From the NCBI GenBank assembly GCA_028277765.1, contig JANQFQ010000006.1, positions 1 to 64,000 of the forward strand: a DNA stretch of 64,000 bases, read 5' to 3'. Positions 6,321 to 47,209 of this stretch are shown one piece after another. The position numbers and the translations under genes are program-made. The notes below the pieces were generated by a model. The model saw nothing but the letters and a program-made list of their open reading frames with translations, was not told the origin of the DNA and did not search any database. The stretch is from Desulfobacterales bacterium (GTDB lineage: Bacteria; Desulfobacterota; Desulfobacteria; Desulfobacterales; SURF-7). Positions within the stretch are counted from its first letter, which is position 1. Each line of letters starts with the position of its first letter.

Positions 6321-6342
6321 CAAAATAAAAATAATTTGCCGG

Positions 6343-7437: not shown

Positions 7438-7552
7438 GTTCGCCTCCTTTGGCTGTCAGCACTGAGATAAAGAATTGTTTATTGAACTGATCATTGAACA
7501 TTGCAAAAAAACAACTTAAACACAAGCATAGAAATAGATTACATACTTCCAA

Positions 7553-8467
7553 TTATTTCTCCACTCCTTTTAAATTTTCAATCGCCTTTTTAATTCTATA
7601 GCTCAGGTAGTCATCATCCTTATAAAACTCAGCCAGTTCAAGCAATAATGGGACCGCGCTTTCATCTCCGTTCCTGCTGACAGCATCTATGATTCCCCCC
7701 TTTATGTAGCTATCGGTCTCTTTTGAAATGCAGGCAAATAGAGGCTCTGTCGCACGTCTGTCCTTAAACAGGCTGAGAGAAGAAGCTGCCTCTACTCTTA
7801 AGTGCTTTTCATTTTCTACAGACGATTCCAGCACTTTAAAAAGACTCATTAATATGCTTTCATACGCTCTGTCTCTGTTTTGCAAAGAGAATCCGATAAG
7901 ACCTAAAGATCGAACGGCATTATGACGCAGATTGATATCCTTTGAAGAATCAACAGCGATCTCACAAAGAAGAGGTGCTGCAGATACAGTTTTTCGTTTA
8001 CCCAGTTCCAGGGCTGCAAGCGCATCCCCTTTTTGTGAAACACTCTCTATTAGGCTATCGGTCTCTGTAAAAACAAAATCAGCTGCCAGTTCAGTATAAA
8101 CTAACACCACAGCTGCTGTTAGCATGGCCAGGTTAATGACAGCAAGTATCCCAAAGCCCACGACATAAAGGGTTTTATTTTTTTTATTTTTTTTTATTAG
8201 AAAAAGACCTGTCAGCAAACCAACGGCCCATAAGCAAAGACCGAATATGCCGATAGTATATTCGTAAAACCTCACAACACCACAGTGACCAGATGCTTCA
8301 ATAAGAAAAAAATTGCCAAAAATACATGCTGATAACACGCCCGCAATTATAATGGCTATAATGATAATACTTAGTTTTTCTTTCTCTTTTTCAGGCAAAG
8401 GCCTCACTCGATAAAATAAATCTTCCTGCTTTTTCCTGAAGCGATTTAGCGACTTCCGACAGTTCAA
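7553..8467 (-). CDS. Membrane protein with C-terminal HEAT repeats
   Basis: Multiple N-terminal TMs followed by HEAT-like helical repeats ([14 protein letters not shown]..., [43 protein letters not shown]); start uncertain, ORF overlaps the 3' end of the MCP gene. Confidence 0.7.
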
Positions 8468-23912: not shown

Positions 23913-24824
23913 TTATTGATCAAGAAAAGTTGTCACCAGCTGATCCCATTCTAGCCCCTTTACACTTCCAAAGATATCTTTTACCGGCACACCGCCTGTG
24001 GCAGCGAGTTTTTTGTATTCAGGTGAAATCAGTCCGAGGAGCTTCTGGCTCTCTTCATCTATCCATTCCATACTTTCAGAACTATAAAAAAGTTTTTTCA
24101 GATTTCTTTTCGGCATATCTGTTTCTACAGTAAAGAGCCACCCTTTATCATACGGATCATCATGCGCTATTTCAGGATGAGCAGAAACGCCATAGTTTAC
24201 CGCCAGCACTGTACCGGAAACAGGAGATATGGCGGCCGCGGTCCTGTTATCCCTTTCGAAGCTTACACACGTTTTGCCCTGTTTTAACTTTGTTCCAATT
24301 TCAGGCATGTTGATTGAATCCATCGGTCCGAAAAGCCTGACAAGAAAATCATCGAAACCCACCCGGCTGAAACCCCCATGTTGAAAACATGTCCATGTAT
24401 GACATGGATGATAATAGTATTCCTCTGCAACCTGATAACCAGAAGCTGACTTAACTTCTTTGACTTTCGGCTTTTGTGATAAATCAAATTCATCTAGCCA
24501 TTGATCATAACTGCAGTGATTGCATTCATAGTTATTCGGACATGTTTTTGGCGGATCAATCCGACCGGTCAATACATGGCGGCAGGGTCTTTCATCATTT
24601 TTGTACCTTTTTCTCAAATATTCAGCCCATGCCGGCGGCTTGTACGGCTTTTTCCCTTTTGTCTTTGCCTTCATGGCTTTTGCCATGCCTGTATCAAAGG
24701 GACATGATGTGCAGTCATAAGCATTGTCGCATAAACGAAAAGTTACAACCCCCGCCTTCATCCATATGCATTCATTATCGATGACCTTTAATCCCGCGAT
24801 TTTAACCTCTTTTTTCTGTGTCAT
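23913..24824 (-). CDS. Cysteine-rich protein with C-terminal GcvH/lipoyl-like domain
   Basis: AAAISPVSGTVLAVN and YDKGWLFTVE are GcvH hallmarks; two N-terminal Cys modules (CDNAYDCTSCPFD and CPNNYECNHCSYD). Confidence 0.75.
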   Translation of the reverse strand: MTQKKEVKIAGLKVIDNECIWMKAGVVTFRLCDNAYDCTSCPFDTGMAKAMKAKTKGKKPYKPPAWAEYLRKRYKNDERPCRHVLTGRIDPPKTCPNNYECNHCSYDQWLDEFDLSQKPKVKEVKSASGYQVAEEYYYHPCHTWTCFQHGGFSRVGFDDFLVRLFGPMDSINMPEIGTKLKQGKTCVSFERDNRTAAAISPVSGTVLAVNYGVSAHPEIAHDDPYDKGWLFTVETDMPKRNLKKLFYSSESMEWIDEESQKLLGLISPEYKKLAATGGVPVKDIFGSVKGLEWDQLVTTFLDQ

Positions 24825-25114: not shown

Positions 25115-26245
25115 TTACATTCTGTAAAGGTCTTTTGGTAAAGGTGTTCCACCAAGGGCAATTCGCGCGATATCACCTAAAAAAATTAGAGGCATTTCAT
25201 GCGCAGAAGCAATAGTTGCGAGTGAGTGTATACACATGGGACAGAGACACACCATAGCTTGTGCTCCGTTCTCTTTTGCATCTAGAATGTTAAGCTCCTG
25301 ATCAGGACCAGGATCTCCATTATTGAGCATTAGTTTTATGGCAGCACAGCACATTGCCTCTTCCCTGTCATACTCTCGCTGTACCCGTTTTACGCCTGTC
25401 AATTCAAATATCTCATCAATATAATGCTCTTTTTCAGGTGTATAACATGAAGCGCATGGGCGCTGATAAGCGACTTCAATATTTAAAGGTTTAATCCTGT
25501 TTTTTTTTGCATTGAGATATCCGGCAAGATATTCAGACAAATGAACCGGCCTGAACGGGACATCAATACCGTATTCAGGCGCAATTTTCGCGAGCATGGC
25601 ATAGCAGTCATCATGAAAACAGACGATCTCCCTGGCGCCGGTAAGAGCAAGGCGGTCAACCATCTCTTTAGCGTGTTTTTCCTGTATACTTACCGCGCCG
25701 CTGTGGCTGAACAGAACCCAGCAGAAATACGGTTTACCTCCGACACGCGGCAGGTCATAAAGTTCTCCCTGTATAAGATGGGGGTCTGTTTTTTCAAACA
25801 CGCATGTTGTCATTACCTTTTTAGCCCGTGGATAAGACTGCAGCTCACCTGTAAACGCATACCTGCTTTCGGTCTTTTCAGCGTCATTTCTGGAAATAAA
25901 TGTTTCATGCTTTTCCTGAAGTTCAGCGATAAGATCGAACGGATTCGCGTCATTGGGACATATTTCGTTGCATGCATAGCAGGTGATACACTGTCGAAGT
26001 ACAGGCGTTTGATCTCCGTTTATCATCGCCTTCATCCATTCTACTGCCCGGTCCTGTTCCACATCTATCCAGTAGCATTCCGTAAGACAGTCGCCGCAAC
26101 AATCACAAAATTTTTCTTTGAACATAGCAAAACCTTTTTTAAACATGTAATTACAAACGCCGATAAATCTATTGATATATTTTTTTGTTTGAACAGGCTT
26201 ATCTATCTGTTCGGCGAATTCCTCTTCATCATCCTCTATAACCAT
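25115..26245 (-). CDS. HdrD-like Fe-S oxidoreductase with two CCG-type domains
   Basis: Two ferredoxin-type Cys clusters (CDCCGDCLTEC, CITCYACNEICP) and CCG-like segments (RPCASCYTPEKEHYIDEI...MCCAAI). Confidence 0.8.
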   Translation of the reverse strand: MVIEDDEEEFAEQIDKPVQTKKYINRFIGVCNYMFKKGFAMFKEKFCDCCGDCLTECYWIDVEQDRAVEWMKAMINGDQTPVLRQCITCYACNEICPNDANPFDLIAELQEKHETFISRNDAEKTESRYAFTGELQSYPRAKKVMTTCVFEKTDPHLIQGELYDLPRVGGKPYFCWVLFSHSGAVSIQEKHAKEMVDRLALTGAREIVCFHDDCYAMLAKIAPEYGIDVPFRPVHLSEYLAGYLNAKKNRIKPLNIEVAYQRPCASCYTPEKEHYIDEIFELTGVKRVQREYDREEAMCCAAIKLMLNNGDPGPDQELNILDAKENGAQAMVCLCPMCIHSLATIASAHEMPLIFLGDIARIALGGTPLPKDLYRM

Positions 26246-26437: not shown

Positions 26438-28495
26438 CTATACTACCTCCATCTCTCTTCTAGCTTCCATATCCACCAAAACCCTTTCCCTGGCTTTATC
26501 GATACCAAGAGCCTGACGTTTCTTGTCAATATGCGCTATCATCTTTTGCGCATGTTTGACAGGATCATCTTCAATATCCCACATTCCCCCATAAATCTTT
26601 TCCAGATCATTAAACAGATAATCCTGAAATACAGGCGCGCCAGATGTCGGCAATGTAACACCAAAAACAGTATAAACACCTGAGGATACAAAATAGTGCC
26701 CGATGCTGATCGCTTTTTCGCTCATCCATTCCGGCGCGCTTCCTGCAACCGGAAGATCGCTGATATCATTTCCAAGACCGCCTGCTTTCACGACTTCAGT
26801 TGCAGCCAGCAATATCCGGCTGTTGTCCACGCAGGAACCCATGTGGAGCACCGGAGGAATTCCAACAGTCTCACATACTTCTGCTAAACCTGGGCCGCAG
26901 TAAACACCTGCGGCTTCAGGGACCAAAAGCCCTTCCATGGCACAGGCAATACCATTGCATCCGGTAGTCAGCACGAGAACATCATTTTTTATCAGTTCTT
27001 TTACTACTGCGATATGCCCTTCATTGTGCGTTGTCCTTGCATTGTTGCAGCCAACCACTCCGGCAACACCGCGAATACGGCCGTTAATAATATTATCATT
27101 CAGCGTGTAATAAGATCCGCGAAACATTCCTCCAAGATGGTATTGAATGGACTCTACGCCAAAACCGGCTATCTGAGTTCCCTTTTGTTTAGGTATGATT
27201 ACATCGGCACTTCTGTTTTCAAAATTATCAATGGCCAGCCTAACTATTTTTTTTGCATCTTCCAGGGCATAATGCTCGTCAAATTCTATATGGATAACAT
27301 TATCCTGTTCCATTTTAGCAATCGGATGGGTTGTAATAAGTTTTGTATGGAAGCATTTAGCCACATTGGCAACATTCTGAAAAATACATTGAATGTCAAC
27401 TACCATAGCATCGCATGCACCTGTGATGATGGCAAGTTCCTGCTGTAGAAATGTCCCGCAAAGCGGCACACCATGTCGCTGGAGAATCTCATTGGCTGTA
27501 CAGCAGATACCGGATAGCTGTATACCCTTTGCACCCTTTTCGTTTGCATAATCTTCCATTTCTTTCATCTGGGAAACAGCCACAATCATTTCAGAAAGGA
27601 CAGGTTCATGCCCATGAATAATAATATTGACATGATCCTCTTTCATAACACCAAGGTTTGCTTCTGACTGTAGCGGGTAAGGTGTACCGAACAGAATGTC
27701 CTGGAGATCAGTAGCCATCATTGATCCGCCCCAGCCGTCAGCAAGTGCTGCCCGTGTGCCCTGTTTTATCATGTTCTTGTAATCCTGGTCGACACCAATA
27801 TGAGTACGATGCATGATTTCCACTATTTCTCTATCAATATTTCTGGGCAGTACCCCATTTTTCTTCCATTTTTCATATAGCGGTGCCGGAGCACGTTTCA
27901 AATATAACAATTCATCTTCAGGCTTTCCCCATTCATTTAAAGCCCTTTCTGCAACTTCAAGAGCTATTTCATCGATATTACGATCCTTTATTTCTCCATC
28001 TATCTCAATGGTTGTTTCAACATTAAAATGAGGCGCTATTGATATAAGCTTATTTGCATCCTTTATCTTATATGCCTCTGTCTCCTGTCGTGCGGCACTC
28101 AAAAAAATCTCTGCAACGCAACGGCCGTGGTCTGAATGGGCGGCCGCTCCGCTCGCAATCATCCTTAAAAAGTTACGTGCCGCAATCGTATTAGGGGAAG
28201 CGCCGCATAATCCTTTTCTGTCATCTTTTCCCTCTATCCCGTTTTTTGGAAGTGGAAGCCTGCATGGACCCATTCCGCAATTTTTACAGCAAGTTCCCTG
28301 CACACCAATATTACAGGGCTTCATGTTTGCAGCTCTATCAAAAACAGTTTCAATTTCCAGATCATGCGAACGCGTAATCATTTGGCGTGTCGCCTTATCA
28401 ATGGAAGCCGTTGTCGGATCTGCCAGTTTTTTTTTCTTTTGATGACTTTTTTCTCCAGGCACTACTTTAATCTTGTGCTTAACCTCTTCTGACAT
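26438..28495 (-). CDS. cooS: Anaerobic carbon monoxide dehydrogenase catalytic subunit
   Basis: CNIGVQGTCCKNCGMGPCRLP...GLCGA, GICCTANEIL, DIQCIFQNV, GVVGCNNART, LTTGCNGIACA, HMGSCVDNSRI, MSEKAISIG. Confidence 0.97.
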   Translation of the reverse strand: MSEEVKHKIKVVPGEKSHQKKKKLADPTTASIDKATRQMITRSHDLEIETVFDRAANMKPCNIGVQGTCCKNCGMGPCRLPLPKNGIEGKDDRKGLCGASPNTIAARNFLRMIASGAAAHSDHGRCVAEIFLSAARQETEAYKIKDANKLISIAPHFNVETTIEIDGEIKDRNIDEIALEVAERALNEWGKPEDELLYLKRAPAPLYEKWKKNGVLPRNIDREIVEIMHRTHIGVDQDYKNMIKQGTRAALADGWGGSMMATDLQDILFGTPYPLQSEANLGVMKEDHVNIIIHGHEPVLSEMIVAVSQMKEMEDYANEKGAKGIQLSGICCTANEILQRHGVPLCGTFLQQELAIITGACDAMVVDIQCIFQNVANVAKCFHTKLITTHPIAKMEQDNVIHIEFDEHYALEDAKKIVRLAIDNFENRSADVIIPKQKGTQIAGFGVESIQYHLGGMFRGSYYTLNDNIINGRIRGVAGVVGCNNARTTHNEGHIAVVKELIKNDVLVLTTGCNGIACAMEGLLVPEAAGVYCGPGLAEVCETVGIPPVLHMGSCVDNSRILLAATEVVKAGGLGNDISDLPVAGSAPEWMSEKAISIGHYFVSSGVYTVFGVTLPTSGAPVFQDYLFNDLEKIYGGMWDIEDDPVKHAQKMIAHIDKKRQALGIDKARERVLVDMEARREMEVV

Positions 28496-33312: not shown

Positions 33313-34689
33313 CTATTTTTTAAAACGGCCGTCAATCTCAGGAAGGGTAATTCCTAATTTTTTTATTTTCCTGAAAAGTGTACTTTTATGTATACCGAGT
33401 TCACGCGCGGTAGCCTGGCGATTATAGCTGTTCCGATTGAGCGCCGCCATAATCATCCCTGCTTCAGCAGACTTAACCGCATCACCCGGCTTGTCCTGAT
33501 CAGAAAACGGCAACTCCCGGGTAATCAGTGTAGCAGGAAAGTGCTGCTTATGAATAAAACCTTCAGGACAGAGGACAAAAGCATGTTCAATAATGTTTTC
33601 AAGCTCCCGTATATTGCCGGGATATATATGAGACATCAGCAGGCTAAGCGCCTCCTGATCCATGCCTGATATGGTCTTACCTTTAATTCTGTTCATCCTG
33701 TCAATAAAATGGTCAACAAGGAGAGGAATATCTTCCATCCGCTCTCGAAGCGGTGGCAGAAGCATCCGCACAACGTTAATCCGATAAAAAAGGTCCTGTC
33801 TGAATTCCCCGCTGTCAACCATGGACAACAGATTCCTGTTTGTCGCGGCAATAATCCTAACATCCACTTTTTCTTTTTTTACCGCACCAAGGGGCAGGTA
33901 CTCATGTTCTTCTAAAACACGTAAAAGCCGTACCTGAAACGCTGAACTTGTATCTCCAATTTCATCAAGAAGGATGGTTCCGCCTTCAGCGACAGCAAAA
34001 TGGCCCTTTTTGTCCTTAATAGCATTTGTAAACGCGCCGGCCTTATACCCGAACAGCTCTGATTCCAACAATGTGTCCGGCAAGGCACCGCAGTTGATAG
34101 CGATAAATGGTTTTTCTTTCCTTTGGCTTGAATGGTGTATCGCCCTTGCCAGAAGCTCCTTTCCGGTCCCGGTTTCACCTTGAATAAGCACCGTACTGTC
34201 ACTGTCAGCCACCTGGGGGAGAAGTTCGAAAATCTTGCGCATGGAAGGACTGCTGCTGACCATATCACCGATCTGAAAGCGGGATGTCAACTCCTTGCGA
34301 AGTTCCTCCACAAGGCTTATGTCACGGAATGTCTCCACTCCGCCCAGGACTTCTTCTTTTTTGTTTTTAAGCAAGGAAGTTGATGCAGTGATTGGAATTC
34401 TTTTTTTTTCGTGGTTAATAATATAGGTAGAGGTACTGACCAGCGATGTGCCTTCTTTCATTGTGCGCTTCAACGCGCAGTCACCTTCACACATGTTGGC
34501 CCGAAAAACTTCCCAGCAGTGCCTGCCCACAGCTTCATCCCGTGAAATCCCCGTAATTTCCTCCGCAGCCCGGTTGAACGACATGATCCGCCACTCAAGA
34601 TCAACCGTAAACACACCGTCTGAAATACTTTCCAGGATTATTTCCGTGACGTTTTGGGGAATATCACAAATTTTTTTCTTTTTACCCAT
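33313..34689 (-). CDS. Sigma54-dependent activator (PAS-AAA+-Fis)
   Basis: GETGTGKELLARAIHHSSQR, GAFTNAIKDKKGHF, Fis HTH; Cys-rich PAS RHCWEVFRANMCEGDC. Confidence 0.93.
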   Translation of the reverse strand: MGKKKKICDIPQNVTEIILESISDGVFTVDLEWRIMSFNRAAEEITGISRDEAVGRHCWEVFRANMCEGDCALKRTMKEGTSLVSTSTYIINHEKKRIPITASTSLLKNKKEEVLGGVETFRDISLVEELRKELTSRFQIGDMVSSSPSMRKIFELLPQVADSDSTVLIQGETGTGKELLARAIHHSSQRKEKPFIAINCGALPDTLLESELFGYKAGAFTNAIKDKKGHFAVAEGGTILLDEIGDTSSAFQVRLLRVLEEHEYLPLGAVKKEKVDVRIIAATNRNLLSMVDSGEFRQDLFYRINVVRMLLPPLRERMEDIPLLVDHFIDRMNRIKGKTISGMDQEALSLLMSHIYPGNIRELENIIEHAFVLCPEGFIHKQHFPATLITRELPFSDQDKPGDAVKSAEAGMIMAALNRNSYNRQATARELGIHKSTLFRKIKKLGITLPEIDGRFKK

Positions 34690-34816: not shown

Positions 34817-35329
34817 TTATTTTTTCTTCAGCAATTCACTGATCTTTTTAAGTGTATCAGTATCACATCCATTTATCATTGATTTTAATTCTTCTTTTTC
34901 CCCTGCTTTTTCTGCGACTGTTGGATCAACGCCCAGGATGTCACATATGGCCTTAACAAGGCTTACCGGTGTAACCGGCTTTTCCAGGATATGTTTTGGC
35001 CCTTTTCCAGCGTCAAAGGCCTTAAACTGTTCAATACCATCCCCTCCCATTTCATCGCTGGCATGTGCGGTAATGACAATAACCGGTATTTTAGTACTCC
35101 CCTTAATTTTCCGCATTCGACGAAGCACGTGAACGCCTGACAATCCTGGCATCACCATATCAAGAGTCATTAAATCCGGCGGATCAGCCTTGATCTTTTC
35201 CAGTGCTTCTTCCCCGTTTTCAGCGGTTTCAACAATAAATCCCGCGTCTTCAATGCATGCGGAAATAAAATTCCGCACATCCGGTTCATCATCAACAACC
35301 AGGATTTTCTTGTCTGATGCTTTTACCAT
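34817..35329 (-). CDS. Rrf1-like response regulator downstream of the hmc genes
   Basis: KKILVVDDEPDVRNFI...DLMTLDMVMPGLSGVHVLRRM...IPVIVITAHAS. Confidence 0.85.
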   Translation of the reverse strand: MVKASDKKILVVDDEPDVRNFISACIEDAGFIVETAENGEEALEKIKADPPDLMTLDMVMPGLSGVHVLRRMRKIKGSTKIPVIVITAHASDEMGGDGIEQFKAFDAGKGPKHILEKPVTPVSLVKAICDILGVDPTVAEKAGEKEELKSMINGCDTDTLKKISELLKKK

Positions 35330-35360
35330 TGTCTGCTCCTTTTATAAGGCTTCAAAAAAA

Positions 35361-35433
35361 TATCGAAAGCGCCCGGCACTGTTAAATAATAATGATGGAG
35401 GTAAGCTGCCTTGATCCCGGGCGCTTTTCGATA
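35361..35433. repeat. Long inverted repeat between hmcF-like and rrf1-like genes
   Basis: tatcgaaagcgcccgg (35361-35376) versus ccgggcgcttttcgata (35417-35433). Confidence 0.75.
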
Positions 35434-35457
35434 AACGCGTTCAGGGGTGCTGTCTGT

Positions 35458-36777
35458 TTACACCTCAGGTTTTTCCATTACCTCGTACATAATATCACTG
35501 ATAAATTTTACATGCATATCAAGCTTATAATATAAAACAATATCTTCCATGCCGCTATGGCAGTTATGGCAGGGGGTGATCAGGATCTCTGCGCCTGTAT
35601 CAGCACACTGTTTTGCCTTGACCTTGTTTCCCATGACCCGCTTGTTTTTAAACGGAGGACCGCAGTTAATCACACCACCGCCTGCATTACAGCAGTAATT
35701 ATGCTCCCGGTTCGGGTGCATCTCAATGACATTTTCACATAATTCATGGATAACATAACGAAGCTTGTCATGAAGACCTCGGCCCCTGATAACATTACAC
35801 GGATCATGTATGGTGACGGATTTTTTATATTTTTCTTTAATCTTAATTTTACCTGTTGACAGAAGTTCATGATAAAAGTCAATGGCATGCACCATGGGAA
35901 CCGGTGGATTTGCCCATGCGAGCCAGCGGTTACCCACGTCATACACTGACCGGAATGCGTGTCCGCATTCACCCATAACGATCCGTTTTACTTTAAGCTT
36001 TTGCGCGGCTTCATAGTGGAACTTTTTATTCCTGCCCATGATTTCATTGTCACCTGTAAACATGGCCATGTCACTATTGTCCCATCCGGGCATGGACGGC
36101 ATGGTCCAGTCACATCCTGCTACGTTAAAAATATAGGCTGCCTGGTACAACAATCCTGCCAGGAACTTTGGCTCAGGACCGATAACAGAATACATAAAAT
36201 CAGCCCCTTCCTTATCTAGGGGAATACGAAGATCTGGTAATTCCTCACGGGCATCTTCTTCCTGCCACTGCAGAGTGTCGATCCACTCGTCCTCTTTTAC
36301 CCACATCTGGTTTTGAGTAACTGAATGGCTGTGGGCTGTATCCTGTATATATAAAGGTGTAACCCCGCACAAATGACATATCCGTCTTATCACCAACAGG
36401 ATATAGGCTGAATCAACACCAAAAGGACAATACATAGCGCACCGCTTGCACACATTGCATTCAGTTGACGCTACTTCTGATGCCTGCCGAATAAAATCTG
36501 GATCAACCTTCCCTTTTCGCTTTAAGATTTCACCCATGGTCCGCCTCACCTTACCAGCAGGTGACAATTTTGGATCACGGCCATAAGATAAGTAATAAGG
36601 ACAGGTTTCAGAACAGAGACCGCAATGTACGCATGTATCCATATACGCCTTAAGCCTTGCTCCTGTTTCACCGGATAAAACCTGGTTTATCACTTTATCA
36701 ATGCGTTCCTGTGTTAGCCGTTCTTTCCCGGTATCAAGCCCCTCATCAATAATTCTGTTTTTTGCAGGCTCAGCCAT
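35458..36777 (-). CDS. hmcF: HmcF/TmcB-like CCG-domain Fe-S protein
   Basis: CVHCGLCSETCPYYLSYG, CNVCKRCAMYCPFG, CCG motifs HDPCNVIRGRGLHD...NYCCNAGGGV, ITPCHNCHSG. Confidence 0.85.
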   Translation of the reverse strand: MAEPAKNRIIDEGLDTGKERLTQERIDKVINQVLSGETGARLKAYMDTCVHCGLCSETCPYYLSYGRDPKLSPAGKVRRTMGEILKRKGKVDPDFIRQASEVASTECNVCKRCAMYCPFGVDSAYILLVIRRICHLCGVTPLYIQDTAHSHSVTQNQMWVKEDEWIDTLQWQEEDAREELPDLRIPLDKEGADFMYSVIGPEPKFLAGLLYQAAYIFNVAGCDWTMPSMPGWDNSDMAMFTGDNEIMGRNKKFHYEAAQKLKVKRIVMGECGHAFRSVYDVGNRWLAWANPPVPMVHAIDFYHELLSTGKIKIKEKYKKSVTIHDPCNVIRGRGLHDKLRYVIHELCENVIEMHPNREHNYCCNAGGGVINCGPPFKNKRVMGNKVKAKQCADTGAEILITPCHNCHSGMEDIVLYYKLDMHVKFISDIMYEVMEKPEV

Positions 36778-36791
36778 CTATATCCTCCTTT

Positions 36792-37466
36792 TTACCAGTC
36801 TCTCGCATGTCTTACACCGCCGAATTCAGATCCCAGATACGCTCTTGTAAACACCGCATAAAGCATGTGGGTTAGGCGTGTAAACGGGATTGCCATCAGC
36901 ATAATTTCTCCTGAAAGAATATGAAGTATCAGCCAGAAGCGGTAATAACAGCACTGCTGATCAGCCAGAAAGCCGGTAATAAAGGGCGCGGCAGCAATGG
37001 TAAGCAGTGCATAGTCAGAAGGGGTTGTAATAAACCTGACATCCCTTAAAATCAGCCGCCGCAGGAGAAAAAAAACACAGGCAATAATAACAATAACCGT
37101 TATTACATCTGCTGTTCCGTCTGGTATGGTCCACCAGCTCACACCAAAAGCTTCATTTATCAGAATGACATGAGCTGCAAGGAAAAACGGCATGCATACA
37201 AGACCCATATGAAAAATAAAGGTCATGATCGTCATGAAAGAACGTTTTCTCCAGTTTGTTGATGCAAAAGGAATAATCCAGTGTAAAATCGATCTTATGC
37301 TGTATTTCCAACTCATATATCTCCAGATGAATTTTTCCTTCTGGTTAACAAGGGATATTAATTGATGAATTTTGTAAATACTGCCGCCGATAAAAACAAT
37401 AACTGCGACAATAAACAGCGGACCGCTGATAAAATTATAAAGCATATCAAAATTGCTCATACCCAT
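36792..37466 (-). CDS. hmcE: HmcE/TmcC-like membrane cytochrome b subunit
   Basis: NarI-like multi-TM protein located between HmcF-like and upstream hmc genes. Confidence 0.75.
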   Translation of the reverse strand: MGMSNFDMLYNFISGPLFIVAVIVFIGGSIYKIHQLISLVNQKEKFIWRYMSWKYSIRSILHWIIPFASTNWRKRSFMTIMTFIFHMGLVCMPFFLAAHVILINEAFGVSWWTIPDGTADVITVIVIIACVFFLLRRLILRDVRFITTPSDYALLTIAAAPFITGFLADQQCCYYRFWLILHILSGEIMLMAIPFTRLTHMLYAVFTRAYLGSEFGGVRHARDW

Positions 37467-37478
37467 TCCCCTTATCTG

Positions 37479-38792
37479 CTATATCATCTCATTGATTGAA
37501 ACAACTCTTCTATAGCACACACCGTCCTCAACCGTTCTGCAAAGAATTTTACTCCCGTCAGGACTGAAAACAGGTTCCCAAGCCTGTTCACACATTCTTT
37601 GCCAGAGTTTTCCGTTTACGGCGATTGTATATTTACCGTCTTTCTCCACCTTGGCCGCAACGTTTTTGCTGTCCGGGCTGAAAACAGGCCCCCATGCCAT
37701 GTCAAAGCTGTTGTCCCATTCACTGCCATCAATAGCGATCGCATACTTGTCACCCTCTTTTCCCACACACCCTACACGGCTGCTGTCCGGGCTGAAGGTA
37801 AGATCGGTAACCATATCACAAAATGTTATGTCCCAGGCTTTTCCATCAACCGCTACCGTCCAGCTGCCAAAACCTTTTGCGACAATCGCTGCCAGTTTTT
37901 TTCCGTCAGGGCTGATCTTCTGGTGCCATACCTGGGCGAATTTGCTGTCCCATATGATATTGCCGTCTTCTGCCATGGTCCATGCCCCGGCTGTCCTTAC
38001 AGGAGCGATGACCGTGCCTTTATCAGAATGAAAAATCGGCGCCCATACACATCCGAATATCTGTTCCCACGGTTTACCGTTAACAGCGATGGTATAATCA
38101 TAAAGATTAAGACGGACTTCAGCAGCCAGCTTTGTCCCGTCCGGACTGAAGGCCATGTTCCACACATTGACAAAATTCCTGCCCCAGGCGTTTCCGTTTG
38201 CCGCGGCAGTAAAACACCCTTCCTGGAACTTAAAGACTTCCGCCTGTCCAAAAGCCACAGCCTGAGCCGAAGCAGCTGTATTTTTTCCATCAGGACTCAT
38301 GGTCATACAAGTAATAAAGCTGAAGCCGCTCTCCCACGGGGTATCATCCTTGATCATCAGGTAACTCCCTTCCTGCTGGGCAGCTACGGCTATGGTCTTA
38401 CCGTCTTCACTGAACTGCTTGTCCCAGACATAGTCGCTCGCCTCTTCCCACAGCTCTCCGTCCACAGCAACCGTCCATGCCATGTCTGCTGAAACAAGAG
38501 CCGTCAACCTGCCGTCAGGTGAAAACTTAAGCGACCATGCCTTTTCAAACGGTTCCTCTATTTCCCATGCTTTTCCGTTTACACACACATTGAATTCAGC
38601 TTCATCCGTGTTGACGATAGCGGCAACTTTTTCTCCATCAGGACTGACATAAGGCTCTTCCACCCAGTTATACGAGGCCTTCCATTCTTTTATGTCTGAA
38701 ACCAGCTTGTCGCCGATCTCCCAGTCCCAGTTTGCTGAATCTGCCATACAGCCTCCTTTATGTATTACCCTGCGGGAATACTCCCGAAACAT
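37479..38792 (-). CDS. Trp-rich WD40/PD40-like beta-propeller (TmcD-like)
   Basis: Tandem repeats of type W...FSPDG..lAa.v...g.wtiavdGkpWe. Confidence 0.75.
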   Translation of the reverse strand: MFREYSRRVIHKGGCMADSANWDWEIGDKLVSDIKEWKASYNWVEEPYVSPDGEKVAAIVNTDEAEFNVCVNGKAWEIEEPFEKAWSLKFSPDGRLTALVSADMAWTVAVDGELWEEASDYVWDKQFSEDGKTIAVAAQQEGSYLMIKDDTPWESGFSFITCMTMSPDGKNTAASAQAVAFGQAEVFKFQEGCFTAAANGNAWGRNFVNVWNMAFSPDGTKLAAEVRLNLYDYTIAVNGKPWEQIFGCVWAPIFHSDKGTVIAPVRTAGAWTMAEDGNIIWDSKFAQVWHQKISPDGKKLAAIVAKGFGSWTVAVDGKAWDITFCDMVTDLTFSPDSSRVGCVGKEGDKYAIAIDGSEWDNSFDMAWGPVFSPDSKNVAAKVEKDGKYTIAVNGKLWQRMCEQAWEPVFSPDGSKILCRTVEDGVCYRRVVSINEMI

Positions 38793-38821
38793 TAAACTTT
38801 CTGCTGAAAACCATCCATGCT

Positions 38822-38947
38822 TTAGTCGTCGCTAATGTGCAGATAGCTCCAGAAAAGCACAAGGATTACAAAGAATCCAATGACAACAAGATATTCAACC
38901 CCTTTTGTCGCAAAAAGATCAAAATATGTAAAAATACCTTCTTCCAT
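38822..38947 (-). CDS. hmcD: HmcD-like single-TM small subunit (41 aa), absent from the ORF track
   Basis: MEEGIFTYFDLFATKGVEYLVVIGFFVILVLFWSYLHISDD*; sits between hmcC-like and hmcE-like genes. Confidence 0.8.
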   Translation of the reverse strand: MEEGIFTYFDLFATKGVEYLVVIGFFVILVLFWSYLHISDD

Positions 38948-38975
38948 TATTTCTGTCTCCAATGAGTATTTAAAA

Positions 38976-40205
38976 TCAGTGACTATCCTCAACCCAGTCC
39001 GGTGATTTTCTTAAAACCGGCATTCTCAGAACAACCCACCGGAACACCCAGATTTCCACAAAAATTACAGTCATGGTAATGACGATTTCCATCCATGACG
39101 GATAATAGTGGAACGGCGCGTCCCACTTATAAGCGATGACAGATATGTTCAACCTGTTAAGGATGATGCCGATGGTGGTCAGTACCGCGGCAACCCGTAT
39201 GGGTGTAATCGCCCGGGTCCTCACACCTTCCACGAAAATTGCCAGGGGTATGGCAACAAAACCGATCATTTCAACCAGAAACCAGTATCCCATGGGCGTC
39301 CCCAGGTATGTCCAGTGATGCTCATGAATAAACACTAAAAGCTTTAGGAAAAAATAGGCAAACATAGCGCCAGCCGCGCCTTTGGCAAGCCCGATGGTAA
39401 TATCCTCTTCCGTGGCATGATGGTCTTCAGGTATCTGGTCCCTGAACACCCTGTGGCTGATGGCGCCTTCAATGATAACAAGAGAAAGCCCGGCAAAAAC
39501 ACTTGAAACAAAAAACAGAATGGGGATGAATTCAGTATACCAGAGGGGATGAATTTTATCCTTTGCCATCATAAAAAGAGCGCCAAGGCCTGACTGGTGT
39601 AGTGTAGAAAGCGTAATACCGAATATAACCGCGCCTATAGTAAGCGAGCCGAGTACTTTTCTTAATTTTCGCCATCCAGCCCATTCAGCAACTGCTGGCG
39701 AGAATTCAACAAACTGCGCCATCATATAGAGCAGAAAGTGCCAAGCCACAAGAAACAACACCGAACTGTATCCGAACTCGTTGCCGATTATCGGATTAAC
39801 AACATTCCATGGCCGACCAAGATCGAGCAAAAGCGCGCCAGCATAAAATACGTACGCGAGAAATCCGTTTAAAACAGTAGCGCGGATAATCGGATGATAT
39901 TTTTTCGCACCAAACACATAAACAGCGCACGTAAGAACATAAGCACCCCCAGCAAATGCCACACCGGTTACCACATCAAATCCGATCCAGATCCCCCAGG
40001 GGAAGTCATCAGACAGGTTTGTCGCAGCACCAAGACCGAACGCGAAACGATATATGATCAGTATTATACCAATAAATATAGTTATACCTGAAATCACATT
40101 AAAGGGTGTAATGATTTTCCCTTTTGGTTTAAGTTCCTCCAGGAAAAAAGGGATGAAATTTTTAATTTCCTGATTAAGCGCTTTTACAGTTCCATTACTC
40201 ATCAT
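38976..40205 (-). CDS. hmcC: HmcC-like NrfD-family integral membrane protein
   Basis: Ten-TM NrfD/PsrC-type sequence (DDFPWGIWIGFDVVTGVAFAGGAYVLTC). Confidence 0.88.
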   Translation of the reverse strand: MMSNGTVKALNQEIKNFIPFFLEELKPKGKIITPFNVISGITIFIGIILIIYRFAFGLGAATNLSDDFPWGIWIGFDVVTGVAFAGGAYVLTCAVYVFGAKKYHPIIRATVLNGFLAYVFYAGALLLDLGRPWNVVNPIIGNEFGYSSVLFLVAWHFLLYMMAQFVEFSPAVAEWAGWRKLRKVLGSLTIGAVIFGITLSTLHQSGLGALFMMAKDKIHPLWYTEFIPILFFVSSVFAGLSLVIIEGAISHRVFRDQIPEDHHATEEDITIGLAKGAAGAMFAYFFLKLLVFIHEHHWTYLGTPMGYWFLVEMIGFVAIPLAIFVEGVRTRAITPIRVAAVLTTIGIILNRLNISVIAYKWDAPFHYYPSWMEIVITMTVIFVEIWVFRWVVLRMPVLRKSPDWVEDSH

Positions 40206-40218
40206 TTACCTCGTTTTT

Positions 40219-41142
40219 TTATTCCTTGGCATCATCTGCTGGTGGTGCTTCCTTCTTTGCTGTCTCTTTTTCATCTGCTTTTTTATTATCTGCTTCATCA
40301 GCCTGTTCGCGCCTGCGCGTCAGAATACTCATGCCTGCCAGAAATGTGGGCCACAGAACAAACACAACCGGGACGCCATACAGGAATCCTTTTGTGAATT
40401 CTGGATATGGAGTTTTGCTGATACCGGTATTAAAGCCAATCTGGTCGAACGGCACTTTGGAAAGATACATCCATGATGTTCCCCCTGCTTCCTGTTCGCC
40501 GTATATCTCATTGTAGTATTCGTCAGGCTGACGGGCGATTCTTGATTTTGCGATCTTAAGCATCTCCCTCCTTGAACCAAACCGTAAAGCTTCCACCGGA
40601 CAAGCTTCAACACATGCCGGCAGTTTTCCTTCTTCCTGACGTGAAAAGCAGTATGTACATTTCTGCACTTTAGGTATGACACTGTGGTACTCATACTTGG
40701 GCATATCAAACGGGCATGAAACCATACAGTAGCGGCATCCCATACACTTGCTCCCTCTCCATATCACCGGACCGTCCTCTTTTTTCAGCATAGCGTTCAC
40801 AAGACACGCGGATGCGCAGGCTGCCTGGTTGCAGTGCATACACTGTCTTTTTACGGATACAATCCCTTTTTCCGTTTCATATCTGTTTACCACTGTCCAT
40901 GCCTTGTAATCAGTTACCCGTTCTTTTTCAAAGACAGACACATCATCAGGATCTGGAACAGGATTCCCGTTCTCTTTTGCACATGCCTCTTCGCAACGCC
41001 TGCAGCCAATGCACCTGGTAGTATCAACCAGTGTGCCAACAAACTCAGTGGTCTCCGTTGCAGCACCAGCTGACCTGCCCACAGTGGAAGCCACCCCTGC
41101 CGCACCCATCCAGCCTAAAAATTTCCTTCTTGATATGGACAT
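40219..41142 (-). CDS. hmcB: HmcB-like Tat-exported ferredoxin subunit
   Basis: MSISRRKFLGWMGAAG Tat motif; CIGCRRCEEACAKEN, CMHCNQAACASAC, CMGCRYCMVSCPFD; C-terminal TM; start assigned to 41142. Confidence 0.9.
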   Translation of the reverse strand: MSISRRKFLGWMGAAGVASTVGRSAGAATETTEFVGTLVDTTRCIGCRRCEEACAKENGNPVPDPDDVSVFEKERVTDYKAWTVVNRYETEKGIVSVKRQCMHCNQAACASACLVNAMLKKEDGPVIWRGSKCMGCRYCMVSCPFDMPKYEYHSVIPKVQKCTYCFSRQEEGKLPACVEACPVEALRFGSRREMLKIAKSRIARQPDEYYNEIYGEQEAGGTSWMYLSKVPFDQIGFNTGISKTPYPEFTKGFLYGVPVVFVLWPTFLAGMSILTRRREQADEADNKKADEKETAKKEAPPADDAKE

Positions 41143-41156
41143 GTTTTTCCTCTTTT

Positions 41157-42686
41157 TTATTTTTTCATATGACAGTCTGTGCATCCTGTCTTATCAATTT
41201 TCATGCTGCTGTGGCATCCCATGCATTGCAGGTGATATGCCGCTTTTATGCCAGGTTTAAACGGATTCTCTTCATCCGGTGTTTTGCCGTGACAGCTACC
41301 GCAAAGTGTCGGCTTTTTTGATGCCGGGCTGTTATGATGGCATCCCTGGCAAATCGTACCTTTTCCAGAATGGAAAAATGCAGCCAGTTCATTGTTTTTT
41401 GTATCTTCAACAAGTTTGTTAACAACTTTCCTGTGAGGGAATTCAGCTGGATCATATTGATCGACAAGCTGTTTTATGACAACCTTTTCAGGAATATCAG
41501 CATTGGGGTAAGTGCCTGACACACTTCTACGGGACGCGAGCAGCTTTTTCGCAATTGCTTCATCATCGCCTGAAAAACCTGCTAGCGGTTCCACATGACA
41601 CTTGGCGCATGATAAATCATCCTGCTTCTGTTTTTTGTCCAGAAAGACATGACACCCAGCGCATTCTTTTTCCTGCTGCGTCATTTGGTGACAACCCCGG
41701 CAACTATTATCTGCGCCGCCCATGTGCATCGCCTTCTCAAGGCTGATATTTTGCCCGTCTTTTGAACCCTCAATCGTGTGGCACTTGTTACACGCGCTTA
41801 ATTCGCCGTGGTGGCAGACACGACAGGTATCCTGCGCCTCTTCATGCCCCTTATGGTTAAACGGAACAAGGTTCATCCTTGCCTTACCAGGTGCGTCAAG
41901 TGCTTTATTACCTGTTTTTATCATCACCAGGTCCGGTTGATTCCGGTCAAGCCTGGGGGCGGGATCTATTCTTTTGATCGCCTGCTGTTTTTCCTGATCA
42001 TGGCATCCCCCGCATTTTACAGGTCCTGTTTCTTTTTTCTCCTTTGCGACGTTCATATGGCAATCCACGCAAGAAGCGTGTGCAGCCTCTTCCATGGAGA
42101 TTCTATCCTCTTCAGTAACATCCTTATGGCAATACCGGCATGTCCCCTCTGAATCTTTTTTGTAAATGCCGGTTTTACAATCGGTATGGCATGTTTCACA
42201 TTTTTTGTCGTACGCTTTAGAGTGTCGGTAATGGAGTGATTTGTCGAGCCCCATGGGCTGGCGGGAAGAAACAACATAAGGCTTCTCTTTGTGACACTCA
42301 CCGCATATAACCGGTCCGCTTTTATCCCCTTTTGCAGCAGTATCTTTATGACAGCCGATACAGCCGTCATGATAAATATTCATAACTTCCTGCTGATCGG
42401 TATCCTTCAGACGCATGAATATTGGCGAAAGCTTGTCATCCTTTTCTTTGTGACAGGCCTTACAGTCCTTCCCCTTTTTCTCCAGTGCATTGGTATGCTT
42501 ATCATGAAAAAAATTCACTGCTGGTTTTTCAAGTTCACCAAAAACCGTCATTGAATCGATCGTTATCATATCCGGGCTGGATACTTGTCCTTTGTCTTTT
42601 TTTCCCTTTCCAGATACGCTAACTGTAATCAAAAAAATAAAGACAAGTATGATTATTGCCAGCCATGCTTTGTTTTGTTTCGCCAT
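41157..42686 (-). CDS. hmcA: HmcA-like 16-haem cytochrome c
   Basis: Signal peptide and 16 CxxCH motifs counted by eye. Confidence 0.92.
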   Translation of the reverse strand: MAKQNKAWLAIIILVFIFLITVSVSGKGKKDKGQVSSPDMITIDSMTVFGELEKPAVNFFHDKHTNALEKKGKDCKACHKEKDDKLSPIFMRLKDTDQQEVMNIYHDGCIGCHKDTAAKGDKSGPVICGECHKEKPYVVSSRQPMGLDKSLHYRHSKAYDKKCETCHTDCKTGIYKKDSEGTCRYCHKDVTEEDRISMEEAAHASCVDCHMNVAKEKKETGPVKCGGCHDQEKQQAIKRIDPAPRLDRNQPDLVMIKTGNKALDAPGKARMNLVPFNHKGHEEAQDTCRVCHHGELSACNKCHTIEGSKDGQNISLEKAMHMGGADNSCRGCHQMTQQEKECAGCHVFLDKKQKQDDLSCAKCHVEPLAGFSGDDEAIAKKLLASRRSVSGTYPNADIPEKVVIKQLVDQYDPAEFPHRKVVNKLVEDTKNNELAAFFHSGKGTICQGCHHNSPASKKPTLCGSCHGKTPDEENPFKPGIKAAYHLQCMGCHSSMKIDKTGCTDCHMKK

Positions 42687-42699
42687 TGTTGTATCCTTA

Positions 42700-42942
42700 T
42701 CAATTATCCTTCAGCTTTTTTAACCGGATCCTGTATCCATGCGCTTCATCCTCCATCTCCACGAGTTCGTAGGAAGATGCTGGCAGAACTTTAAAAATAT
42801 CCGAGATGGTTTCAGGGTCGAGAACTAAAATTTCCAGAATCTGATCTGATTCCATTTCTCTGAATGTATCTGTTAATTCAAGCAGTGTGATAGAAGCGAT
42901 CGCCCCTCTGAAATCAACAGTATAATCAGCTTCCGGGTACAA
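42700..42942 (-). CDS. TusA-like protein lacking the CPxP motif
   Basis: TVDFRGAIASITLLELTDTFREMESDQILEILVLDPETISDIFKVLPASSYELVEMEDEAHGYRIRLKK. Confidence 0.65.
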   Translation of the reverse strand: MYPEADYTVDFRGAIASITLLELTDTFREMESDQILEILVLDPETISDIFKVLPASSYELVEMEDEAHGYRIRLKKLKDN

Positions 42943-42975
42943 AACTATCCCTCCTTTTTTCTACTTCCCCTAATC

Positions 42976-42991
42976 TGCAAGGTCAGTGCCA
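42976..42991 (-). promoter_or_regulatory. Sigma54 (-24/-12) promoter of the hmc operon
   Basis: Minus strand TGGCAC-TGACC-TTGCA, full consensus. Confidence 0.9.
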
Positions 42992-43075: not shown

Positions 43076-43113
43076 GTTAATGTGTTAAAATATTCATGTT
43101 AACAGGTGTTAAA
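43076..43113 (+). promoter_or_regulatory. 38-bp candidate enhancer element, copy A
   Basis: GTTAATGTGTTAAA-atattcatg-TTAACA-g-GTGTTAAA; see finding. Confidence 0.75.
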
Positions 43114-43135
43114 TTTTAACAGGGCAGGAAAAAAG

Positions 43136-44530
43136 ATGTATGAAAAAGATCTGAACAAGTACTGGAAAACGGTTGTTAATACCATCCAGGACGGCATTAT
43201 GATCATCGATAAAAGCGGGGCGATCATATCCGCGAATATGGCGCTTGAAAAAATTACCGGATACTCAAAAAAAGAACTAATCGGCAAAACATGTGAAGTG
43301 CTGAACTGTGACATCTGTGAAAAGACAAGGGAGAATGCCGGTAAACACTGGTGTAAACTGTTTAGAACCGGCAAGATGACTAGGAGAAAATGCACTTTTT
43401 TGCGCAAAGACGGCACTTATACCCATGTCCTGAAAAATGCGACACTATTGCGCGACAGTCGAGGAAAAATATTAGGCGCAGTTGAATCAGTAACCGATAT
43501 TAATGAAATTACTGAGCGGGATAACCAGATAGCTGAATACCGCAAAGAACTGAAGTCAGAAGACGGATTTCACGGCCTCCTAGGACAATCTGCTATTATG
43601 CAGCAGACATTCGCACTTATTGAAAATACAGCCGATTCTGATGCCCCGGTAATCATATTTGGTGAGAGTGGTACTGGAAAGGAGCTTGTTGCCAAGTCAA
43701 TTCATGAAAGTAGCCGCCGCCGCCGCAAACCATTTGTAAAAGTGAATTGCGCGGCTTTAACTGAAACCCTTCTTGAAAGTGAATTATTTGGGCATGTCAA
43801 AGGAGCATATACTGGTGCCTATAAAAACCGGGAGGGAAGATTTGAAATGGCCAAGGGAGGATCCATATTTCTTGATGAAATAGGGGATTTACCCCTCACA
43901 ACTCAGGTAAAACTGCTCAGGGTGTTGGAAGAAAAGGTTATTGAGCGGGTGGGTGACAACAGGCCAATCCCCGTAAATGTCCGCATTATATCAGCGACAA
44001 ACCGAAACTTAATTGAGCTTGTTAAAAACGGGGGCTTCAGAGAAGATCTCTATTTCAGAATTAATGTGATCCCCATCAATATCCCCCCGTTACGGGAAAG
44101 AACCGAAGACATTTCATTGCTTGCGGCAGCCTTTTTTCACAGAATCCTTCTTAAAAACGGAAAAAAAATAAAAGGTATCAGCAATGAAGTGTTAAACATT
44201 CTCATAAAATACCATTGGCCGGGCAACGTTCGGGAGCTGAAAAGTGCATTTGAATACGCTTTTGTAACTTGTCATGAAACCATGATCAAACCTTACCACC
44301 TTCCCCCAAATATTATTCAAACAACTGGCATATCTGCTGACACATCAGGCAATTCAGGACCGGATGCTAGTAACAATGAAGATGCCAAAAAAAGGGAGCT
44401 TTTATATGCGCTTGAGCAGGCAGACGGCAACCAGTCTGAAGCCGCCCGTATTCTCGGGGTTTCACGGGTAACCGTGTGGAACAGAATGAAGAAGTATGAT
44501 ATTAGATATAAGAAAAAGATAAGATCGTAA
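43136..44530 (+). CDS. Sigma54-dependent activator (PAS-AAA+-Fis)
   Basis: GESGTGKELVAKSIHESS, GAYTGAYKNREG, Fis HTH; GTG at 43106 falls inside the enhancer element, ATG 43136 preferred. Confidence 0.93.
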   Translation: MYEKDLNKYWKTVVNTIQDGIMIIDKSGAIISANMALEKITGYSKKELIGKTCEVLNCDICEKTRENAGKHWCKLFRTGKMTRRKCTFLRKDGTYTHVLKNATLLRDSRGKILGAVESVTDINEITERDNQIAEYRKELKSEDGFHGLLGQSAIMQQTFALIENTADSDAPVIIFGESGTGKELVAKSIHESSRRRRKPFVKVNCAALTETLLESELFGHVKGAYTGAYKNREGRFEMAKGGSIFLDEIGDLPLTTQVKLLRVLEEKVIERVGDNRPIPVNVRIISATNRNLIELVKNGGFREDLYFRINVIPINIPPLRERTEDISLLAAAFFHRILLKNGKKIKGISNEVLNILIKYHWPGNVRELKSAFEYAFVTCHETMIKPYHLPPNIIQTTGISADTSGNSGPDASNNEDAKKRELLYALEQADGNQSEAARILGVSRVTVWNRMKKYDIRYKKKIRS

Positions 44531-44782: not shown

Positions 44783-45163
44783 TCAGCCAATTAACTCCTC
44801 AACCATTTTAATCAGCCTTTCCTCATCAATCGGCTTATTCATAAAGCCTTCAGGATTTTTAAATCCTGGAACCTTGTTAAAATACCTTCTCATGTCATCT
44901 CCCACAGCAGTAATAACAATAACCGGTATGGCTTTCAGGTCCTCATCCTCTTTGTACTGGCGAAATGTCCGCACACCTGTCTGGTTCGGCATTGCAATAT
45001 CAAGGGTAATAAGATCCGGCTTTTCCTGTTTTGCCACATCTATTCCTTTAATACCATCTTCTGCTGTCACGGTTTCATAACCATTATCCTCAAGAAGCGT
45101 AACCAGATATGTTGACACATCTTTTTCATCCTCAACAACCAGTATTTTTTTGCCTGAGCTCAT
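44783..45163 (-). CDS. Single-domain Rrf1-like response regulator
   Basis: KKILVVEDEKDVSTYLV...DLITLDIAMPNQTGVRTFRQY...IPVIVITAVG. Confidence 0.9.
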   Translation of the reverse strand: MSSGKKILVVEDEKDVSTYLVTLLEDNGYETVTAEDGIKGIDVAKQEKPDLITLDIAMPNQTGVRTFRQYKEDEDLKAIPVIVITAVGDDMRRYFNKVPGFKNPEGFMNKPIDEERLIKMVEELIG

Positions 45164-45412: not shown

Positions 45413-47209
45413 TTATTTCTCAGCTGGTTTTGGCAGCCGGTTTCTTGGGAGGCGCATGATAAATGTCGTCCCTTTGTCTTTCTCTGACACCATATCGGTT
45501 TTTCCACCATGCTCCTGAACAATTTTTTTGGTTGTAAGGAGACCGAGGCCGGTCCCTCCCAGCCCTTTTGTAGTAAAAAAATTAGTGAACACTTTTTTCT
45601 TTACATCGTAATCCATACCGCAGCCATTGTCTTCTACTTCATAAATAATGACTCCTTTATCTTCCGACACCCTTACCCATATATTGCTTTTTTTGTTGTC
45701 ACTCATGATGCAAGCATCAATGGCGTTCCCAACAAGGTTGGTAAGGCTTTCGTGTATCCCTTCATAGTCCATGGGTGCTTTAGCAATATCACCGATCTTC
45801 ATATATTGAAGATCAATACCCTGTCCCTTTGCTTTTGTTTGATATAGGCCAACGACTTCTTTAGCGATATCTGCTGGATCACACAGCCCGGTTACAATAG
45901 CTCGACCTTTTGAAAAGCTTAAAAATTCCTTTACAAAAGTGGATATCCGCTCAATATTCCTGCCAAGCATCTCCATGCCTTCTTGAATCCTTTCTATCTT
46001 GCTGTTTTTCATACCGGACTTCAGCATGTACATGCCGCCCTCAAGACTAGTGATGAGATTCTTTACACCATGCGCCAGCCCTGCGACCGTCTGCCCTACG
46101 GCAGCCAACCGTTCCGCTTCCAGCTTTTCGTTTTCAAGCTGCCTCATCTCCCTTAGGTCCTGGATGAAAACAGACATGCCCATGGGGCTGTCATCAACTA
46201 TAATCTGGAAGCCTGTCAGCCTGGCCGGGACCTTATTCCCATCAATGGTCTCAATATCAGTTTCAGGCAGATATACATGTCCGGGACCGCTTGATATCTG
46301 GTCCAGAAAACCTTTTGGCAGTATATAATCAAGCTCGTTTCTTTGAACCTGCCTGCTCCCGATAACATTAATCATTTTTCTTGCGGCTTTGTTGAATATG
46401 ACTATTTCCCCATCACTGTCCATACCTATTATACCGTCTACTGATGTAGCGATCATGGATTCCATAAACGTATGCGCAATTTTCAATTCCTTTTCGAGCT
46501 TCAGTGTTTCAGTAATGTCCACTGCCATTTCCATGACTTGTTTTACTTTTCCTTTTTTCGATTCAAGCGGGACTGTTGTAACCTGAAAATGCACTGTTTT
46601 CCCGCTTTTATCTTTAACTGTTGAATAGCCAGTATGGGTTTTACCGTCTTCAAAAGTCTGCCAGGCTATACATTCTCTGCATATGCTGTCTAATCCCTTG
46701 AGGGATTGATAACAGGTCTTCCCTTCAATATCCCCGAACATCTCTCTTATTTTTTTGTTTGTACTTGTGATATTAAAATCTTTATCTATTACAAGGATGT
46801 TGCATGGAACTTGGTCAAAAAGAAGCTGGCGTTCTTTCCTGATTTTTATCGTTTCGGTAATATCTGTAGATATTTCAATCAGAAAACCAATATTGCCTTC
46901 TTCATCCGGAACAGGGATAGTATGTTTAAGGTAATTGGTACGCTGCCCGCTTTTATCATATCCGACCTCTTCATTGGTCCGGGGAATACCGTCCTTGAAG
47001 GCATTAGCCGCCTTACAGCTTGTGCATATGGAATCCCTGTTTTTATAAACAGAATAGCACTTGCGTGTCTTCCACTTGCCAAACATCTGCTCAAAGGCGT
47101 TATTTGCGTATATAATATTAAATTCAGTGTCTACCACAGCACAAGACATTGAAACTGAGTTAAACAGGTTTTCCGTAATCCAGTTATCCAGATTTATGGG
47201 TGAAGTCAT
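45413..47209 (-). CDS. Multi-PAS sensor histidine kinase
   Basis: LAHGVKNLITSLEGGMYML H-box; EDNGCGMDYDVKKKVFTNFFTTKGLGGTGLGL; two Cys-rich PAS domains. Confidence 0.9.
   Translation of the reverse strand: MTSPINLDNWITENLFNSVSMSCAVVDTEFNIIYANNAFEQMFGKWKTRKCYSVYKNRDSICTSCKAANAFKDGIPRTNEEVGYDKSGQRTNYLKHTIPVPDEEGNIGFLIEISTDITETIKIRKERQLLFDQVPCNILVIDKDFNITSTNKKIREMFGDIEGKTCYQSLKGLDSICRECIAWQTFEDGKTHTGYSTVKDKSGKTVHFQVTTVPLESKKGKVKQVMEMAVDITETLKLEKELKIAHTFMESMIATSVDGIIGMDSDGEIVIFNKAARKMINVIGSRQVQRNELDYILPKGFLDQISSGPGHVYLPETDIETIDGNKVPARLTGFQIIVDDSPMGMSVFIQDLREMRQLENEKLEAERLAAVGQTVAGLAHGVKNLITSLEGGMYMLKSGMKNSKIERIQEGMEMLGRNIERISTFVKEFLSFSKGRAIVTGLCDPADIAKEVVGLYQTKAKGQGIDLQYMKIGDIAKAPMDYEGIHESLTNLVGNAIDACIMSDNKKSNIWVRVSEDKGVIIYEVEDNGCGMDYDVKKKVFTNFFTTKGLGGTGLGLLTTKKIVQEHGGKTDMVSEKDKGTTFIMRLPRNRLPKPAEK

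Follow-up and report, generated by a model that had tools for sequence, protein, structure and literature searches.

The window analysed here, a 64-kb stretch of DNA from a Desulfobacterales bacterium (contig JANQFQ010000006.1), contains nine genes on the minus strand (34817-42942 in its list of open reading frames) in which subunits of the Hmc type are followed by subunits of the Tmc type. The HmcABCD and TmcDCB proteins probably form one composite transmembrane electron-transfer complex, the operon having lost hmcEF, gained tmcDCB and later had the core of hmcB together with hmcC and hmcD exchanged in place, a reading of the sequence that was given a probability of roughly 60%. The genes are listed below from the first of the operon to the last, followed by the putatively replaced segment.

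42700-42942, minus strand: TusA-fold protein, first gene of the operon (PF01206)
41157-42686, minus strand: HmcA, 16-haem cytochrome c (equivalog, 16 CxxCH, structure matches)
40219-41142, minus strand: HmcB, 4Fe-4S protein with twin-arginine translocation (Tat) signal, chimera (best NCBIfam family, Cys pattern, identity bins)
38976-40205, minus strand: HmcC, NrfD-type membrane protein of an out-of-class lineage (PF03916, tree)
38822-38947, minus strand: HmcD, membrane peptide of 41 amino acids (aa) (weak HmcD match, sequence signature)
37479-38747, minus strand: TmcD, Trp-rich beta-propeller (NF045725, structure model)
36792-37466, minus strand: TmcC, membrane subunit (equivalog)
35458-36777, minus strand: TmcB, two 4Fe-4S motifs and CCG domain (equivalog, motifs, tree)
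34817-35329, minus strand: 170-aa stand-alone receiver (domain match, NCBIfam below cut-off)
38822-41071, minus strand: putative replaced segment, hmcB from about codon 39-50, hmcC and hmcD (identity, trees)

Families were assigned with NCBIfam equivalog models and their curated cut-offs. The gene order and strand given in an earlier note on this DNA held for every open reading frame that it named, and the hybrid Hmc/Tmc layout that it described was confirmed, HmcA, TmcD, TmcC and TmcB all scoring above their cut-offs. HmcA (591, cut-off 400) contains exactly the 16 CxxCH motifs claimed, zero CxxxCH and zero CxxxxCH, and the solved 16-haem Hmc structures 1h29 and 1gws match it across nearly its full length. 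The propeller, with 23 Trp in 437 aa, was identified as TmcD by the hidden Markov model search that the note had proposed (NF045725, 599 bits against a cut-off of 440, E 3e-180); its likelier start is the ATG at 38747, preceded by AGGAGG, and not 38792. Because the two genes that follow encode TmcC (316, cut-off 240) and TmcB (801, cut-off 735), the operon lacks hmcEF and has the full tmcDCB cassette.

HmcB and HmcC were the best-matching families for their genes, yet both proteins scored below the equivalog cut-offs (362 against 420 and 424 against 550); HmcC of another hybrid locus, L074, passes at 653. The assignment of HmcB as a Tat ferredoxin agrees with its Tat-type N-terminus and its 16 Cys, which are invariant (100%) in the alignment, and that of HmcC as an NrfD-type protein with a match to PF03916. 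A search of the PDB with HmcC gave no match. The HmcD model matched the small peptide weakly (20, cut-off 34), and the reported length of 41 aa is correct provided that the start is the ATG at 38947. The first gene was called TusA-like, which is borne out by the match to PF01206; however, the protein has no cysteine anywhere and its CPxP region reads 'DFRGAI'. Since the CPxP motif is likewise absent from the equivalents in L074, L075, L080 and L227, the protein is probably not a sulfurtransferase. A Cys-less TusA-fold protein is kept as first gene of hmc/tmc loci across several families.

The TmcD model was a confident propeller (mean predicted local distance difference test score, pLDDT, of 94). 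Foldseek returned generic propellers with template modelling (TM) scores of at most 0.50 among the 50 matches listed, with no function indicated, and no signal peptide was seen in the sequence. His86, 99, 182 and 200 of TmcC are invariant across TmcC and HmcE (100% over 84 proteins) and are candidate haem b ligands. TmcB carries two 4Fe-4S motifs and a CCG domain with the pattern C327...C362C363...C403xxC406, the eight FeS Cys and the CCG Cys being 100% conserved over 83 proteins.

Distribution and origin of the hybrid operon

Among 390 genomes of the class, TmcD scored above the cut-off in 240; in the 59 loci annotated around it, some of which run off the end of a contig, tmcD-C-B was usually followed by a 4-haem cytochrome of the TmcA type. 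With a profile built on the hybrid TmcD, seven genomes scored 765-814 bits, G032 scored 725 and the rest at most 673.5. HmcC lies directly upstream of TmcD in all seven high-scoring genomes, the window included, and HmcA and HmcB are also visible in five of the seven hybrid loci; in the remaining two the contig stops short of them. The order HmcA-B-C-TmcD-C-B was found in G019, G022, G033 and G087, and these relatives span several families; HmcC-TmcD-C-B stands at contig edges in G336 and G271. Hybrid copies include JAUXDD010000055, JAQIBP010000048, JAHIVH010000021 and JAADHK010000049, all in metagenome-assembled genomes. The hybrid-operon HmcC of G271 (L214, contig C508, 10042-11146) is broken at the contig end into two frames that overlap, the result of either a frameshift or a sequencing error.

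The hybrid TmcB proteins, the window included, form one clade with that of L061, nested in Tmc (Shimodaira-Hasegawa-like approximate likelihood ratio test, SH-aLRT, 100), and a constraint keeping hybrid TmcB together was not rejected by the approximately unbiased test (p-AU 0.62). Hybrid HmcA proteins group in the tree with HmcA from the canonical hmc operons of a few relatives. The canonical hmc locus of the relative G211 (L227) reads TusA-like-HmcA-B-C-HmcE-HmcF-receiver with a divergent PAS-sigma54 activator, and this genome has its own tmc operon too (L080). The TusA-like gene, the divergent activator and the receiver are common to L227 and the window operon; with flanking genes of this canonical hmc type, the likeliest course is that hmcEF gave way to tmcDCB within such a locus.

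Two further loci bear on the joining of these modules. In L061 (G032, contig C1, 7019-11218) TmcD-C-B is directly preceded by a 7-haem HmcA-like protein, predicted to give Tmc a third type of input cytochrome, and the same genome holds a canonical hmc operon apart from this locus. The genome G489, from another class, has the order TmcD-TmcC-TmcB-HmcA-like-HmcB-HmcC (L293, contig C110, 4400-11931), the HmcA-like protein having 607 aa and 16 CxxCH, and the locus is flanked on either side by kinases and DVU0259-like receivers. This is apparently an independent join of Tmc and HmcABC, with the same modules in a different order, and suggests that the combination is functional.

The genes could instead be co-transcribed and their products assemble separately, as an HmcABCD quinone complex that, like Nhc, lacks E and F, and a TmcDCB complex that lacks TmcA. 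Nhc complexes without E and F are known (PMC4215793), Tmc without TmcA is reported for Seep-SRB1a and Seep-SRB1g (PMC10553843), and the out-of-class HmcBCD relatives described below also exist without E and F. The direct adjacency of HmcABC and TmcDCB in several families, their independent joining in L293 and the match of the flanks to one single hmc locus nevertheless make two complexes rather unlikely.

The divergent hmcB, hmcC and hmcD segment

HmcC of the window is 43-49% identical to all HmcC of the class, which mostly share 65-90% among themselves, and 57-70% identical to many out-of-class proteins (best 70%), referred to here as donors. In a careful tree it is nested in the out-of-class clade (100/98), and forcing it together with the other hybrids, a grouping chosen after the identities were known, was rejected by 332 log units (p-AU 2e-22). 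A quick tree of HmcB also placed the window protein with out-of-class proteins (support 93). The HmcB Tat signal peptide, taken as two 12-residue bins, is 94% and 60% identical to the hybrids versus 42% and 22% to the donors; residues 51-62 are 81% identical to the donors versus 63% to the hybrids, and the protein is mostly donor-like thereafter. The window HmcD, 'YFDLFATKGVEYLVVIGF', resembles the donors' 'YVDIFATKGIEYLLVIGF', unlike the hybrids' 'YTLQDFMLHTESITYI', and from TmcD onward the window is normal. The replacement was revealed by an anomaly, the extremely long window branch in an HmcB/HmcC tree lacking out-of-class sequences. The breakpoints fall between 41071 and 41034 on the 5' side and between 38822 and 38747 on the 3' side. 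We read this pattern as an in-place replacement of ~2.2 kb comprising the hmcB core, hmcC and hmcD, with a breakpoint just after the HmcB Tat signal peptide. Among the hybrids the replaced hmcBCD was seen in the window genome only.

Several points weigh against the composite and its later exchange. The branch support for HmcB (93) is only moderate, no anomaly of guanine-plus-cytosine (GC) content was found across the replaced segment, and the window assembly is a draft of 156 contigs, making a chimeric contig a possibility. In Desulfovibrio, moreover, Hmc and Tmc are thought to be opposite in direction (PMC5109826, PMC4215793), so that the direction of the hybrid is not readable from either parent. 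The absence of a GC anomaly would mean that the exchange is old or that the donor had a similar GC content; by itself the GC content neither favours nor opposes a replacement.

Fragmentation into 156 contigs and the restriction of the replaced genes to one genome would also be expected if the assembly had merged two genomes from one metagenome bin. This origin of the mosaic is very unlikely, the joints being in frame or intergenic in an operon that is conserved elsewhere, and one joint falling within the frame of hmcB; no searched genome has the same hmcC (best 70%), and a donor outside those searched and two precise splice points would be needed. Accelerated evolution of HmcB, HmcC and HmcD in the window genome, with no replacement, would fit the unshifted GC content and the HmcC identity of at most 49% to class relatives, but is scarcely credible for an HmcC nested among many out-of-class proteins at 57-70%, an HmcD bearing their signature and an HmcB that changes from recipient-like in the signal peptide to donor-like beyond it. 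Equally implausible is an hmc operon of the usual kind into which TmcD was inserted, between hmcD and hmcE, as the earlier note had it and as gene order alone would allow. HmcE is homologous to TmcC, and HmcF to TmcB, but the proteins labelled HmcE and HmcF fail the HmcE (216, cut-off 275) and HmcF (378, cut-off 750) models while passing those of TmcC and TmcB, and the window TmcB is 85% identical to that of its nearest hybrid relative (L077), 66-71% to ordinary TmcB and 37% to HmcF. The phylogeny proposed in the note as a check, run with TmcB, placed the window protein inside Tmc. The insertion was thus refuted by the identities of TmcC and TmcB; it is the whole tmcDCB cassette that occupies the place of hmcEF.

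The HmcBCD donor lineage occurs in other classes of the phylum. Donor-type sets (L268-L292, e.g. L271:8042-11650, L281 and L288), with HmcB-HmcC beside HmcD, are widespread out of class. In many of them HmcD carries a fused GcvH domain (PF01597), and the sets sometimes have a 4-haem c3-type cytochrome, a kinase and a sigma54 activator. They are the nearest lineage to the window HmcC (70%), HmcB core and HmcD but have no HmcA, HmcE, HmcF, TmcD, TmcC or TmcB alongside. No name or description of such a system turned up in the literature on GcvH together with NrfD and HmcB that was searched, and a search of plasmids for an HmcC donor returned only distant NrfD/HybB-like proteins (at most 32%). The window itself encodes a GcvH-domain protein with a CxxC-rich N-terminus (23913-24824, minus strand), akin to the GcvH-like genes accompanying donor HmcBCD sets. 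Close to it are two proteins recognized by eye, one an Hdr-like CCG protein (25115-26245) and the other CODH-like (26438-28495).

Proposed electron transfer and related systems

HmcA is expected to contact c3-type cytochromes, HmcB and HmcC the quinone pool, and TmcC and TmcB a cytoplasmic acceptor. In the single complex that we infer, HmcA with its 16 haems would exchange electrons in the periplasm with the c3-type cytochrome pool, and HmcB would hand electrons to HmcC, the putative contact to the (mena)quinone pool. TmcC would move electrons across the membrane via haem b, and the FeS clusters of TmcB would pass them to the CCG site, most likely reducing DsrC trisulfide, with TmcD as a cytoplasmic propeller that may dock or stabilise TmcB. 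Mutants of D. alaskensis have shown that Tmc is needed for H2 use, and it was proposed to feed DsrC, while Hmc was detrimental on H2 and outward electron flow was proposed (PMC4215793); it is on these mutants that the DsrC/sulfite direction of Tmc rests. A hybrid with the Tmc output would therefore most likely deliver electrons to DsrC from both pools, linking the c-cytochromes of the periplasm and the quinone pool to DsrC-type chemistry in the cytoplasm.

It is also tentatively proposed, with less confidence, that TmcDCB is a portable cytoplasm-facing module joined repeatedly to different periplasmic or quinone modules, and that the window represents a triple chimera (class HmcA, HmcBCD of the GcvH-linked lineage, and TmcDCB) working as one complex through which both the c-cytochrome pool and the quinone pool are linked to DsrC.

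The operon shares with HmcABCDEF of Desulfovibrio vulgaris the 16-haem HmcA equivalog and HmcB-C-D type subunits in the same order, but TmcD-C-B replaces HmcE and HmcF, and HmcB and HmcC fall below their equivalog cut-offs. With TmcABCD of D. vulgaris (tmcDCBA in most sampled members of the class) it shares the TmcD, TmcC and TmcB equivalogs in D-C-B order, but it has no 4-haem TmcA and is preceded by HmcABCD. In DsrMKJOP a haem b membrane protein and a CCG FeS protein are joined to a periplasmic haem protein, an FeS protein and an NrfD protein, the same general logic as in the window operon, although the window TmcB fails the DsrK model. The Tmc of Seep-SRB1a and Seep-SRB1g resembles it in that tmc genes without TmcA and with a divergent TmcD are described, whereas the available text names no Hmc subunits (PMC10553843). 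In Desulfococcus multivorans the hmc genes adjoin the tmc genes as separate complexes (PMC5109826). No description of an HmcABCD-TmcDCB hybrid or of an hmcBCD exchange was found in the literature, a search that did not extend to Pereira et al. 2011, where a prior description is possible.

The cytoplasmic partners of Hmc and Tmc in sulfate reducers are unsettled, and with an Hmc input side naturally joined to a Tmc output side it becomes possible to ask which of the two halves determines direction and partner. The exchange of a quinone module in place, with its breakpoint where the Tat signal peptide ends, amounts to a natural domain-swap experiment. The results suggest that respiratory complexes of this kind are assembled from swappable parts.

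Flanking regulators and other redox genes

The operon is flanked by the following regulatory genes.

45413-47209, minus strand: PAS-rich sensor histidine kinase (orthologues in the same place in L074, 64%, and L075, 62%)
44783-45163, minus strand: 126-aa stand-alone receiver (nearest DVU0259 family, 113 bits, cut-off 160)
43106-44530, plus strand: PAS-sigma54 activator, divergent from the operon (identity to the L227 activator)
33313-34689, minus strand: second PAS-sigma54 activator (53% to the tmc-linked activator of L080)

The divergent activator is 74% identical to the one beside the canonical hmc operon of L227 and 38% to the tmc-linked one of L080, to which the second activator, following the terminal receiver, is closer. 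The terminal receiver is 81% identical to that of L077 and 60% to the one that follows hmcF in the canonical operon of L227; among NCBIfam models the DVU0259 receiver family matches it best, below the cut-off (75 against 160). The Rrf1-like label that the note gave to this receiver is not supported.

In the rest of the window genome, which is ~92% complete, neither HmcF nor a second HmcA was found above cut-off. The best non-HmcA match to TmcA, the acidic 4-haem cytochrome c3, reached 43 bits against a cut-off of 114. A PF14589 search of the genome gave no match for the controls either and so carries no weight. A separate true DsrK is present (720 bits). From these searches the hybrid operon is probably the only Hmc/Tmc-type conduit of its genome. 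Elsewhere in the same genome (L217, contig C120 of G000, 6128-7900), a 591-aa open frame beside a kinase and a receiver encodes a TmcB/HmcF-like CCG protein fused to a C-terminal DVU0259-type receiver, a predicted direct link of a redox protein with two-component signalling.

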